Below the pieces are notes generated by a model that had not been told where the DNA came from, did not search any database, and saw only the letters and a program-made list of their open reading frames with translations. The position numbers and the translations under genes are program-made. This document shows positions 28,931 through 32,540 of a stretch of DNA of 51,105 nucleotides, one piece after another (the first letter of the stretch is position 1; each line of letters opens with the position of its first letter). Location of the stretch: positions 1 to 51,105 of the forward strand of contig CASEKR010000009.1 in NCBI GenBank assembly GCA_949288585.1. Direction: 5' to 3'. The DNA is from an uncultured Bacteroides sp. GTDB lineage: Bacteria; Bacteroidota; Bacteroidia; Bacteroidales; Bacteroidaceae.

Positions 28931-29911
28931 ATGAAATCTACAGGGAATGATAAAAAATGGTGGCAACGGTATATAGATAATCTTTACACCCAAGAAGACT
29001 TCCGCCAACTGGGCCTCCGCTTGGACGACCCGCAATCGGCCAGGGCGCTCCATGAACTGATGTCCGGCATTTGGGAAGAGGCGGCCGCCCAGTCCACAAG
29101 CGACCCTTCGGAACGCGAACAATACAAGGAAGAAGCACGCCGGCTGTTGCGGCGTCTCCGTCCGGCTCGCCGTTTCCGCTTCAAGCGTGTGGCGTCGATA
29201 GCCGCTTCTGTGGCCGCAGTCTGCTGCTTGGTGCTGGGAGTCGCTTATTTCTGGCAGACGGAGAGTCAGGCCAATATCAATTACTTGGAGGCTTCCACTT
29301 CCTACGGCGAGCACAAGGAAGTCCGCCTGCCGGACGGCACTACCTTGGTGTTGAACTCTTGTTCGTCCGTGCGCTATCCCGAGCGTTTTGAGGGCGACGA
29401 GCGTCGTGTCGCCCTCGAAGGTGAAGGCTACTTCCGCGTGCACCACGACGAAGACCATCCTTTCTTAGTTGAGGCTTCCGGCCTGGACGTGCGCGTGCTG
29501 GGCACCTGCTTCAATGTCAAGTCCTATTCCTCCGACCAACTGATGTCCGTAGCTGTGGAAGAAGGCAAAGTGCAAGTCGACCTGCCCGAGGCCATGATGC
29601 GCCTGGTGGCCAGCGAGCGTGTCACCATCGATACCTATTCCGGCGAATATGCCAAGCAGAAATCCGAATCGGAGGTGGCCGTGTGGCGTGAAGGCCGTTT
29701 GCGTTTCTATCGGACTCCTTTGTCCGATGTGGCCAAGGAATTGGAGAGGCATTACCATTGCCGGATAGTGCTTGCGGGCGGGGCAGGGAGCGACAACCTC
29801 ATCTCCGGCGAGCACGACAACAAGACCCTCGACGCCGTTCTCCGCTCCATCGAATATACCAGCGGCATCCGCTACCGCGCGGAAGGGGATAGCATCGTGC
29901 TTTATAAGTAG
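28931..29911 (+). CDS. FecR-family anti-sigma factor
   Basis: This is an inner-membrane regulator that holds the ECF sigma until a signal arrives from the SusC receptor. It has 326 residues. A cytoplasmic N-terminal part (1-85) has Trp-rich WWQRYIDNLYT and basic RRLLRRLRPARRFRFKR before the membrane helix (about 87-107). The periplasmic FecR domain (about 120-215) includes EVRLPDGTTLVLNSCSS, LEGEGYFRVHHDE and VRVLGTCFNVKSYS. A C-terminal DUF4974/STN-like domain (about 253-326) starts WREGRLRFYRTPLSDVAKEL. Normally susC follows directly. Here a reversed block of 2.2 kb intervenes. Confidence 0.94.
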   Translation: MKSTGNDKKWWQRYIDNLYTQEDFRQLGLRLDDPQSARALHELMSGIWEEAAAQSTSDPSEREQYKEEARRLLRRLRPARRFRFKRVASIAASVAAVCCLVLGVAYFWQTESQANINYLEASTSYGEHKEVRLPDGTTLVLNSCSSVRYPERFEGDERRVALEGEGYFRVHHDEDHPFLVEASGLDVRVLGTCFNVKSYSSDQLMSVAVEEGKVQVDLPEAMMRLVASERVTIDTYSGEYAKQKSESEVAVWREGRLRFYRTPLSDVAKELERHYHCRIVLAGGAGSDNLISGEHDNKTLDAVLRSIEYTSGIRYRAEGDSIVLYK

Positions 29912-30000
29912 CGGGTAGAGCGACAAGTTATTCGCCGAATTTTTTCGGCGAATAAAGGGCGTAATCGCCGAAAAGGGGAGGAAAAGCCTTTGGGGAGAGC

Positions 30001-30507
30001 TTATTTGATCACGATGTCGCTGCCGATGATAAGCCTTACGCCGTATTCATTTTTGAATCTTTGCATGTATTCTTTGTGACTGACGGCGAATGTCGGATGT
30101 TTTTTGTTGCAGGCGTATGCCATCCGGTGCCGGAAAGTGTTTATGTCGTGGCAATTTTTAAAAATCCGGATGGTTGTAAGCAATTGTTCTTCAACAGCAT
30201 GTGTTATCCAATCTTTCCTCTGGTCTTTCAATTCGACAAAAATGATATACTTGGCATGGCGAAGCAGGGCATCGCAACGATTTTCCATTTCCCCGTTTTC
30301 ACGTTTGATTTCAATCTTGTTGTCAACGGCTATGAAATAAACCGGTTCTTTTGTCCGGTTTTCAACTATGGCAATCCACTGTTCTCTCTGTGCAGGTTCG
30401 GTGCTCGCATACGCAGGAGTCTTTTCTGCTTCATCCTCATCATCGCAGATGCCGAATAAAGCAGCATTAATCTCTTCTTCGTCTTTGAAAAAGTCAATCT
30501 TTTCCAT
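30001..30507 (-). CDS. PD-(D/E)XK nuclease-like partner of the adjacent ATPase
   Basis: This is a 168-residue protein without signal peptide or membrane segment. An acidic N-terminus (about 1-30) is followed by a core. Asp79 in ENRCDALLRHAKYIIF, Glu92 and Lys94 in FVELKDQRKDW and Gln108 in AVEEQLLTTI fit the D-x12-ExK pattern and following helix of PD-(D/E)XK nucleases. The assignment rests on the motif and predicted strand-strand-helix order only. The start codon overlaps the ATPase stop by 1 nt (TAATG), so the two are translationally coupled and probably act together. Base composition looks more AT-rich than the flanking operon. No named family was recognised. A non-nuclease role is possible. 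Confidence 0.6.
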   Translation of the reverse strand: MEKIDFFKDEEEINAALFGICDDEDEAEKTPAYASTEPAQREQWIAIVENRTKEPVYFIAVDNKIEIKRENGEMENRCDALLRHAKYIIFVELKDQRKDWITHAVEEQLLTTIRIFKNCHDINTFRHRMAYACNKKHPTFAVSHKEYMQRFKNEYGVRLIIGSDIVIK

Positions 30508-31727
30508 TATTCTGCATTCAATTCTTCTTCAATGTCAAGCAACGCATCAAAGAGCATATTGGTGTCGTTCAATTTCTTGTTCAGGAAATTGTCGTCCGAG
30601 GGAAGTCCTTCGTAGTTGCCCAGTTCGTTGGCGGTGCCGTTTTCCAGTTCATAAATTGCCAAGTCTTTCGCTTGTATCAAACTGCCTTTCGGTACTATCC
30701 GATAGAGTTCCGCCTCCAGTTCATCGTGGCCCTTGGCTTTTGCAGCCAGTTGCGTGGCTTTGACTGCCAATGTCAGGTAGTTGATGATGTAAGGACTGTG
30801 CGTGGTTAGTATCAGCCTGTTGTCGGGCAGCGCATTGGTGGTGGCCATCAGTTCGTAGAGCACATTCTTTTGGGAATCGGGGAACAAGTTCAGTTCCATT
30901 TCTTCTACGACGTTGACGAAGCGCGAATAGCGATAGCGTGAAGACAGGCTGCGCAGCGAGGCCTTTTTTACGTCCTCGCTCAACTGGCTGTCGTTCATGA
31001 TGCTTTCCACCTCCCTTTGCAGTGCCTTCTGCTCTTTTTCAGAAAGGTTATTGTTTTGTGAACTGTCTTGTACCATTTCCGACAGATTTTTTGAAACCAG
31101 CAACAGAGGCAGTGCAGACTGGAAACCGCTGGAAGCTGCCGACAGTTTTATTTCAAAGTCGGCATGTGTCAGTTTGGATATGTCGTTGAGGGTATCGTAT
31201 TCAAATCCCACTCCGCCAAAGGGAAGAGTGTATCCGCTTTTCTGCTTAGTTTTCGCATGGGCATACTCTTCGAGGAAAGTCATCATGGAGCTTCCCAGTC
31301 CCTTCAACTGTGAAGGGTGGTCCACGCTGCCCAGAATGCTCCGTTCGGCAGGCACATACATCACCTTCGAGATGCTGAAAAAGTCATGTCCTTGTTCTGT
31401 CTCCTTAATCCTCAATGTCTCGTCTTGATAGCAAAACGTATAATGAGAGCCATTGAACGCCAGTTCCGTATCTGTTCTGAAATAACTTTCCAAATTGTTG
31501 TAGGCAGCGAATGTCTTTCTGAATCTGGAATAGCGCGTAATGTATTGCTCTGTCAGCGAGTGCCGCATCAAGGCTTTCTCTAACCATGAAAACAAGGCGT
31601 AAAGTTTTGCTACGGTGCTTTTCCCGGAGCCTTGTTCGCCTATCATGACGGTCATTTTCCGGATGTCTACCTTCGCTTCCTTGATAGGGCCGAAATGGCG
31701 GATATATAATGTTTCAGTTTGAACCAT
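30507..31727 (-). CDS. AAA/OLD-like (AAA_15/21) ABC-type ATPase
   Basis: This is an SMC/OLD-type ATPase of 406 residues, starting MVQTETLYIRHFGPIKEAKV. The ATG at 31727 is preferred because an earlier in-frame Met lies at the -7 box. Walker A is GEQGSGKST (30-38). YVPAERS lies at 124-130, and a signature-like helix SAASSGFQSALPLLL at 196-210. Walker B with catalytic glutamate is VNVVEEMELNLFP (271-283) and the switch histidine is His310 in LILTTHSPYI. A Glu/Lys-rich helix (about 225-260) fits a short coiled coil. No TOPRIM domain follows, unlike OLD or GajA. The plan is like the ATPases of PARIS (AriA) and Septu (PtuA), which pair with a separate effector. Here the partner is the overlapping nuclease-like gene. 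Confidence 0.85.
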   Translation of the reverse strand: MVQTETLYIRHFGPIKEAKVDIRKMTVMIGEQGSGKSTVAKLYALFSWLEKALMRHSLTEQYITRYSRFRKTFAAYNNLESYFRTDTELAFNGSHYTFCYQDETLRIKETEQGHDFFSISKVMYVPAERSILGSVDHPSQLKGLGSSMMTFLEEYAHAKTKQKSGYTLPFGGVGFEYDTLNDISKLTHADFEIKLSAASSGFQSALPLLLVSKNLSEMVQDSSQNNNLSEKEQKALQREVESIMNDSQLSEDVKKASLRSLSSRYRYSRFVNVVEEMELNLFPDSQKNVLYELMATTNALPDNRLILTTHSPYIINYLTLAVKATQLAAKAKGHDELEAELYRIVPKGSLIQAKDLAIYELENGTANELGNYEGLPSDDNFLNKKLNDTNMLFDALLDIEEELNAE

Positions 31728-31742
31728 AACTATATGTTTTTG

Positions 31743-31750
31743 CAAATGTA
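31743..31750 (-). promoter_or_regulatory. -7 box of the ATPase/nuclease pair
   Basis: On minus, TACATTTG matches TAnnTTTG. The ATG at 31727 lies 15 nt downstream, giving a very short leader. No -33 box is evident. Confidence 0.5.
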
Positions 31751-31846
31751 ACGATTCTGATTGAAAAAGGAGTTGCGTGCCCGCCTTTTTTTGCTCCCGG
31801 GGTGGGACGGAGCCCTATTATCTTCCTTTCTCCTTCGTTACTTCCT

Positions 31847-31903
31847 CTTACCTCGCTCCTACCTCGCTCTTGTGTATAGACAGGAGCGAGGTAAGAGCGA
31901 GGT
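31847..31903. repeat. Nested direct and inverted repeats of TACCTCGCTC
   Basis: The left part has two direct copies of TACCTCGCTC (from about 31849 and 31860). The right part has two copies of its complement, GAGCGAGGTA and GAGCGAGGT (about 31885 and 31896). CTTACCTCGCTCCT (31847-31860) pairs perfectly with 31882-31895, and ACCTCGCTCT (31861-31870) with 31894-31903. The result is a slipped cruciform-capable array upstream of the ATPase gene. Confidence 0.8.
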
Positions 31904-31994
31904 GCGACCGAGAAACGACTTTGGTAGGGCTTCTTTTGACGCAACCTGCGTGGGCTATGGCTTTCAACAAGTCGGCATACTTTTCTGTTATTCA

Positions 31995-32192
31995 TTAAAG
32001 TCCGAGCATAGCCGCAGGGCGTATGTTTAATATAGGGAAGTGCTCTTTTTCATAAGCTATTACGATATCAGACATCATGGTGAGCTCCACGGCATTCTTG
32101 TCGTTAGTCGGGGTATTGTCATCCACTAATGGAAGGAGTTCTTCAATTCTTGATTGGGCAAATTCATATTGTTCTTTGGTTATCTTACTCAT
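31995..32192 (-). pseudogene. Remnant of a HigA-type (XRE) antitoxin
   Basis: This is a 65-residue frame. Residues 1-54 (MSKITKEQYEFAQSRIEELL ... VIAYEKEHFPI) match the N-terminal part of HigA-like antitoxins, with the recurring ELTMMSDIVIAYE and EHFPI. The last residues LNIRPAAMLGL resemble the usual C-terminus (NISPAAMLG). The helix-turn-helix between them is absent, so an in-frame internal deletion is likely. No toxin gene is adjacent. It lies in the same reversed block as the ATPase pair. It may still be expressed as a small protein. Confidence 0.6.
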
Positions 32193-32540
32193 ACTGCTAA
32201 GAAATTAAATGGTTGAACAATCCGAAAGTTTAAATCGCTCCATTACCCTTTTCGTCAGCATGTTTGCGGAGAGGGAATGATTTTTCTTTGCTAAATAAAG
32301 TTAATAAGACCCCTGCTTGGCGGGAGTATAGTGTATATTAGGGTGGAAACGAGTTATTAATCTTTAAACACCAAAGCCATGAAGAAAGCACCTCCTTGAT
32401 TCTTTTTTAAAAGCAGGGACCGGCTCCCAGAGCAGTCCCTGCGCGGTACGGATGCGTGCCCGAAGGTTTCGAAGCAGACGGGCGCCGTGTCGCAATTTTG
32501 TTCCTAACAATTTATTCAATCATTAAAAACGCGCAAATTT
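32193..32540. other. susC upstream region with candidate ECF promoter and leader
   Basis: The 348 nt hold a candidate ECF promoter (32309-32335), a six-codon leader frame (32380-32400) and a GC-rich hairpin (GCAGGGAC 32414-32421 against GTCCCTGC 32436-32443). The RNA leader before susC would be about 200 nt. No full-size gene is seen. Confidence 0.5.
32309..32335 (+). promoter_or_regulatory. Candidate ECF-dependent promoter of susC
   Basis: ACCCCTG (32309-32315), 15 nt, GTGTA (32331-32335). Both boxes and the spacing are identical to the motif upstream of fecR. The expected start is near 32342. Confidence 0.5.

Follow-up and report, generated by a model that had tools for sequence, protein, structure and literature searches.

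Two overlapping genes occupy the minus strand of the window (the whole stretch of DNA analysed, 51,105 nt from an uncultured Bacteroides sp.), between a fecR-type anti-sigma gene and a transporter gene that both run on the plus strand (Table 1). The upstream gene encodes an OLD/ABC-type ATPase, for which an alternative TTG start reaching position 31745 would give a 412-aa product, and the downstream gene encodes a small partner with a putative effector role. The two genes have one base in common, the final A of the ATPase stop codon TAA being the A of the partner's ATG. The first-pass annotation, made by reading the sequence, had described a 406-aa ATPase and a 168-aa partner joined by a TAATG overlap and reversed relative to the operon that they split; it had further listed a Walker A motif (GEQGSGKST), an ABC signature (ASSGFQS), a Walker B motif (VNVVEE) and an H-loop (LTTHS) in the ATPase, along with D79, E92 and K94 in the partner. 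All of these features were borne out when the open reading frames were checked. The right-flanking gene is one that we take, from its sequence and general knowledge of such transporters, to be susC-like.

Table 1. Features of the fecR–susC junction and the sources on which each assignment rests (window coordinates)
Feature	Position	Strand	Evidence
ATPase PDC-M29A, OLD/ABC-type (AAA_15/AAA_21), 406 aa from ATG	30507..31727	-	PADLOC, Pfam, residue conservation
PDC-M29B, PD-(D/E)XK-like putative effector, 168 aa	30001..30507	-	PADLOC, residue conservation, in-register profile matches
TAATG stop/start overlap coupling ATPase and partner genes, 1 nt	30505..30509	-	
fecR-type anti-sigma gene, left flank	28931..29911	+	Pfam FecR 2.4e-15, FecR_C 1.9e-15
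susC-like (presumed) TonB-dependent transporter, right flank, ORF 1184 aa	32541..36095	+	homologues adjoin fecR in relatives
Inserted material between fecR and native susC leader, approximate extent	29912..32281	.	leader conservation and fecR–susC gaps elsewhere
HigA-type (presumed) antitoxin remnant, neighbour outside the module, 65 aa	31995..32192	-	phrog_1373 1.3e-6, relatives L245–L248
Long palindromic repeat 5' of the ATPase, neighbour, dispersed in the genome	31850..31903	.	fold z-score -6.0

The same junction was compared across the genus, in which fecR was recovered at an E value of 1e-60 or better from 29 of 119 genomes, our own included. At 22 of the 28 other fecR loci, a susC homologue lies 36–353 nt behind fecR with no pair between them. 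Two further loci (L149 and L153) have fecR–susC gaps of 1,037 and 770 nt with no match to the pair, and three (L151, L154 and L159) have no susC within 1.5 kb of fecR. At the remaining locus (L138, in genome G522), a decayed ATPase fragment occupies this junction, oriented as in the window; it corresponds to approximately residues 1–144 of the ATPase at 65–71% identity, its frame is broken near codon 24, and the remainder of the ATPase and the whole of the partner are gone. Synteny beyond fecR was compared for this genome alone, where manA (96%), galM (91%), the sigma factor (87%) and fecR (76%) all correspond to those of the window. In susC, identity is 76% for the first 41 residues and falls to 34% over the whole length, and susD stands at 24%; judging from these alignments, the transporter genes were therefore exchanged, leaving the ATPase remnant at the junction. 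One insertion may have given rise to both the window copy and the fragment in G522, although 65–71% identity is low for genomes this closely related. From about position 32282 onwards, the susC leader is conserved with G522 (77%) and is thus native, which limits the inserted material to approximately 2.4 kb.

Two neighbours share this inserted stretch. The short ORF that the first-pass annotation had called an antitoxin remnant is indeed one: four relatives carry the region in frame at approximately 120 aa, and, compared with them, the window ORF has suffered an in-frame loss of about 55 residues that includes the helix-turn-helix. We presume the name HigA, the profile match itself being to a phrog described as 'transcriptional regulator'. 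The palindromic repeat folds more stably than any of 200 shuffled versions, has 40 matches on both strands of its own genome (its own place counted) and possibly belongs to a REP- or MITE-like family; a stretch related to the surrounding region (31820–31935; 76% over 71 bases) lies 5' of the ATPase remnant in G522. In base composition, the ATPase gene (47.1% G+C) and the partner gene (42.2%) both fall below the window (52.9%), and at third codon positions the ATPase ranks third lowest among 30 long ORFs, a low value that is not unique. With a junction that is mostly empty, one decayed copy and restriction-modification (R-M) genes as neighbours elsewhere, the pair looks like accessory cargo, in keeping with what had been proposed from the window alone.

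Among PADLOC profiles, the ATPase matches PDC-M29A over residues 6–402 with an E value of 8.7e-155, the next family being AriA at 5.9e-18; the best PtuA match stands at 1.3e-11, GajA at 1.3e-8 and PD-T4-4_A at only 1.4e-8. Pfam assigns AAA_15 (3.1e-16) and also AAA_21, and a search of NCBIfam returned no match over its cut-offs. The predicted catalytic machinery is maintained, with K36, S200, G201, S204, E275, E276 and H310 each conserved in 86–87 of 87 relatives. When the M29A profile was compared with two ATPases of the PD-T4-4/PDC-M47 kind, the two aligned over 335 columns at P 5.3e-7, as against 0.17 for a FecR control.

The partner matches PDC-M29B over residues 3–167 (7.8e-57), and its likely enzymatic nature emerges from residue conservation. 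Across 107 distinct partners, E92 is conserved in 106, K94 in 105 and Q108 in 105, and position 79 is acidic in all, with Asp in 97 and Glu in 10; C78 (106/107), D62 and N50 (103/107 each) are nearly as constant. In two partners from the same genus (L035 and L036), Lys94 is replaced by Thr (VELT), with the Glu retained. A profile of the 107 rows was compared with known families using hhalign, in single comparisons without secondary structure that spanned 31–51 columns for the nucleases. It aligned in register with NERD (P 0.00078) and the Shedu C-terminal profile (P 0.0012), against 0.83 for FecR, 0.52 for the ATPase, 0.22–0.5 for reversed and 0.39–0.58 for column-shuffled controls. Accepted PD-(D/E)XK members reach only P 0.055–0.09 against each other, which makes hhalign a blunt instrument here. 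A far closer match was obtained with the partners of PD-T4-4_A-type ATPases, a comparator set of three loci only, of which one is best matched in PADLOC by PD-T4-4_B and two by PDC-M47B: the profile aligned with all three at P 8.1e-6, with the D, ExK and Q positions in register, and with each taken singly at P 7e-5 to 6e-4. Against the same set, the reversed (0.14), shuffled (0.11) and FecR (0.16) controls were all weaker, and Shedu and NERD themselves scored 0.04 and 0.03.

General domain databases are less telling. In Pfam, the window partner has no match over the cut-off and two below it. Across 35 relatives the matches are weak only, with NERD in three (best 0.0018), PDDEXK_9 in two (0.005), SduA_C in one (0.00023; 21.8 bits for a cut-off of 27) and HSDR_N_2 in one (0.011), all four of which we take to be of PD-(D/E)XK type; 19 of the 23 families listed over these relatives are not nucleases of that kind. 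Sequence searches of the PDB with the partner yielded nothing credible. Several other assignments were considered and set aside. A TOPRIM of the AriB kind finds no similarity in a comparison with the DUF4435 protein of the same genome (P 0.58, one sequence), and an HNH nuclease is at odds with partner alignments in which no His is invariant or nearly so. Similarity to Cas4 is weak (hhalign P 0.053; for the window protein in PADLOC, Cas4_II 0.0031 and Csn2 0.0023), and the Pfam family SseB_C (0.0022) falls below its cut-off and is matched by one of 35 members. The conserved residues and the in-register profiles support a PD-(D/E)XK-like reading of the partner, with a fold that is predicted, as the first-pass annotation had suggested from D79, E92 and K94; the profiles point to a nuclease, placing the protein nearer to Shedu, NERD and the PD-T4-4/PDC-M47 nucleases than to DUF4435/TOPRIM.

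The coupling of the two genes extends well beyond the window. Scanning genome contigs with the ATPase alignment gave 406 confirmed relatives, of which the best 80, a choice that favours close kin, were inspected. The partner lies directly downstream of the ATPase at 78 of these 80 loci, starting from -49 to +21 nt relative to the ATPase end; 46 of the 78 have a 4-nt overlap, and 73 overlap or abut. The two misses are a locus without a partner (L118) and one with the partner behind an interrupted ATPase (L130). A search from the opposite side, with the partner profile, recovered 30 loci (L002–L031, the window included), of which 28 have an adjoining ATPase match, the ATPase being split into two ORFs in L012 and L021. 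The misses here are a truncated copy (L025) and a partner match with three stops and no ATPase (L030). Pairwise distances among ATPases and among partners are correlated over 87 loci (r 0.48; maximum of 999 permutations 0.19), a value in which host kinship is left in. The pairing is thus real and not a matter of chance, and the proposal that an OLD-like ATPase is conserved in company with a PD-(D/E)XK-like protein is upheld by PADLOC families, pairing counts, residues and profiles alike. One genome of the same genus (G448; L037/L260, 7678–8922) has a full-length M29A-like ATPase behind which no partner could be recognised.

The phyletic distribution of the pair is patchy. Across the phylum, the PDC-M29B profile was detected in 29 of the 395 genomes searched, representing 11 of 170 genera; the 14 control genomes gave no match. 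Eight of these 14 controls are matched by the PDC-M29A profile at E 0.001, so that only matches above 450 bits were counted, of which six were found among 60 same-genus genomes, our own included. Any ABC ATPase profile may match such control genomes. A quick ATPase tree, computed without bootstrap, contains 58 rows from Bacteroidota, seven from Chlorobiota, six from Cyanobacteriota, four from Pseudomonadota, one each from Ignavibacteriota and Thermodesulfobacteriota, and ten unassigned; the named rows span six phyla, and several records are metagenome-assembled genomes (MAGs), so that individual phylum labels could reflect misbinning. In this tree, the window ATPase is nearest to one from a Bacteroidales MAG (60%). 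The partner was absent from 50,697 phage records, one of 72,556 plasmid records matched, and a search of IMG/VR with the single partner protein found no relative. The same resource holds five distant ATPase loci, and on one putative viral contig (L133, 9944–11684) a distant ATPase is accompanied by a partner match of 3.9e-6. The window's own genome carries a second, distant ATPase–partner pair (L263, 1445–3207 on contig C60), whose 212-aa partner aligns with M29B (P 2.3e-4) and has D and Y at the places of E92 and K94; from these substitutions, it looks catalytically degenerate.

To place these loci in context, 128 of 143 immediately neighbouring proteins were used, given an upper length of 1,500 aa and a residue limit. 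Their identities are varied, with type I HsdR in 4/128, the specificity subunit in 3/128 and many housekeeping families in one or two each, so that the homologues are not fixed core genes in a constant non-defence setting. The hsdR gene begins 0–1 nt from the partner end in L064, L091 and L113, and two of these loci also have hsdS upstream (at 25 nt in L064, at 46 nt in L091). The distance to hsdR is 102 nt in L120, and L105 has a gene for a type IIG enzyme 479 nt away. In an R-M check on ten picked, mostly large, neighbours, seven matched R-M models, and those of L109, L067 and L069 gave no match. At an E value of 1e-15, these 128 proteins hit models from 138 PADLOC families. A control set of 118 genes, drawn from 20 arbitrary positions in ten genomes that carry such loci (genes above 1,100 aa dropped), hit 24; the comparison counts families rather than proteins. 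Many copies adjoin housekeeping genes, and some are bordered by core genes, for example CobD, GDC-P or a tRNA synthetase. These data lend moderate support to a defence association. The window copy itself sits in a sugar-uptake operon and not in a defence island.

A further expectation of the first-pass annotation, that this would be a distinct new two-gene module, did not stand. PADLOC-DB 2.0.0 already lists PDC-M29 as a candidate of two adjacent genes, which both window subunits match over nearly their full length, and we found no difference from it. These PDCs are candidates attributed to a 2024 preprint by Payne et al. (10.1101/2024.01.29.577857), by the account in PMC12988326. The name PDC-M29 did not occur in the literature searched, a body of texts apart from their supplements, and no published test was found there. 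Pairs of the same architecture have been described. OLD-ABC ATPases paired with HNH, PD-(D/E)XK or PIN nucleases are reported from 594 taxa in BREX-type loci in PMC12839542, which cites Krishnan et al. 2020; the OLD-ABC ATPase plus novel REase operons of that earlier study, as told in PMC12137116 and PMC12839542, have the same arrangement. Classes 1–4 of OLD proteins are given in PMC10568477.

The closest tested analogue by architecture is WonAB of the Vibrio cholerae WASA-1 prophage, likewise a gene pair of an OLD-ABC ATPase and a PD-(D/E)xK nuclease, the fold of the partner being predicted in our case; it differs in its host and in residing on a prophage element. As described in PMC12137116, WonAB aborts phage infection with both active sites required, and WonB is toxic only with the ATPase, leaving genomic DNA intact while translation stops; tRNA or rRNA is suggested as its target by the authors. 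They also point to a larger, uncharacterised family of ABC-ATPase sensors and nuclease effectors, naming within it PD-T4-4 and an OLD-ABC plus novel REase operon (PMC12137116). PD-T4-4 is among the systems that came from a functional selection for phage defence, according to PMC9519451. Like the window pair, PD-T4-4/PDC-M47 consists of two genes, an ABC ATPase followed by a PD-(D/E)XK-like protein, and both subunits are profile-homologous to ours; they differ in forming separate PADLOC families and in size, with ATPases of 454 and 462 aa and partners of 191–198 aa (in the comparator L274, the ATPase is split into two ORFs). The window pair is not PD-T4-4 proper, given an ATPase that prefers PDC-M29A by the wide margin above and a partner that is not listed for PD-T4-4_B at E values up to 1.

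Other systems built on the same ATPase superfamily diverge in their second component. PARIS (AriA/AriB) also joins an OLD-like ATPase to a separate nuclease gene, but AriB is a DUF4435/TOPRIM protein, to which M29B appears unrelated in the single-sequence comparison above. A PARIS-like pair is present in the same genome as the window (L264, 6039–7879 on contig C5), with AriA at 1.8e-59 and AriB/DUF4435 at 3.7e-63. The partner of Septu (PtuA/PtuB) is an HNH protein, unlike M29B with its lack of a fixed His, and PADLOC gave neither an AriB nor a PtuB match for the window partner. Gabija comprises an ATPase–TOPRIM fusion and a UvrD-like helicase gene, whereas the 406-aa window ATPase has no TOPRIM in Pfam and is neighboured by the 168-aa partner.

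We consider it probable that the window carries a copy of PDC-M29, a candidate defence system within the wider group that pairs OLD-ABC ATPases with PD-(D/E)XK nucleases and that includes PD-T4-4 and, by architecture, WonAB, and that this copy works as an ATPase-gated abortive-infection nuclease; by analogy with the systems compared, this is the most likely of the functions weighed here. The ATPase would dimerise in the manner of ABC proteins, form a complex with the small nuclease and hold it under control, and would sense some change made by the phage; an ATP-driven switch would then activate the nuclease, which would cut nucleic acid and stop the infected cell before phage is made. As to the target, RNA (tRNA or rRNA) has about an even chance and is somewhat likelier than DNA, whose chance falls a little short of even.

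Among the competing accounts, the one that we take most seriously, albeit as unlikely, is a restriction-like DNase, in which the ATPase would recognise foreign or unusual DNA and the partner would cut phage DNA without sacrifice of the cell. Shedu and NERD, both of them DNA nucleases, are among the families matched by the partner, and several copies abut type I R-M genes. Yet the conserved unit is two genes with neither a methylase nor a specificity gene of its own, and WonB, the tested analogue, is described as sparing host DNA and stopping translation (PMC12137116). A toxin–antitoxin pair kept for stability and not for phage defence, in which the ATPase neutralises a nuclease toxin, would suit two overlapping genes, a small nuclease-like product and an adjoining HigA remnant. 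We regard it as improbable, in view of the origin of PD-T4-4 in a selection for phage defence (PMC9519451), the finding that the WonAB ATPase is required for toxicity and not for control only (PMC12137116), and the occurrence of the pair beside R-M genes.

Decay at this very place, both of the HigA neighbour and of the G522 copy, raises the prospect that the window pair is itself a dying remnant; with both frames open and the key residues present in both proteins, there is little to commend this, and we place it on a par with the toxin–antitoxin account. Least probable of all, and very unlikely, is a housekeeping pair for DNA or RNA processing with no part in defence. The copies that flank CobD, GDC-P or a tRNA synthetase would fit such a role, but the sparse occurrence in the phylum, the varied neighbours, the decay in a sister genome and the spread over six phyla among the named tree rows run counter to it.

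The ATPase-gated abortive-infection reading builds on what was already known, namely the OLD-ABC ATPase plus PD-(D/E)XK architecture and the PDC-M29 candidate in PADLOC. To this we add homology of each subunit to PD-T4-4/PDC-M47 at the profile level, a case for a nuclease argued from individual residues, and a fecR–susC junction seen in occupied, decayed and empty form. A more specific version, which we put forward as speculative, is that PDC-M29, as found in Bacteroidota, Chlorobiota and other groups, might abort infection by cutting RNA and stopping translation; its nuclease would form a distinct PD-(D/E)XK branch with near-fixed N50, D62, C78 and N134 beside the D/E-ExK-Q residues, and versions of the family without the catalytic Lys would have arisen more than once (K94T in the two Bacteroides loci, and D-x-Y in the second, distant pair of the window's own genome). 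If this is true, the versions without the catalytic Lys would make the partner a binding or sensing subunit. For the family, the analysis ties PDC-M29 to a validated kind of defence, through PD-T4-4 by homology and WonAB by architecture, and names the predicted catalytic residues of the pair. For Bacteroides, it means that such a unit can lie within an operon for sugar uptake, outside any defence island.
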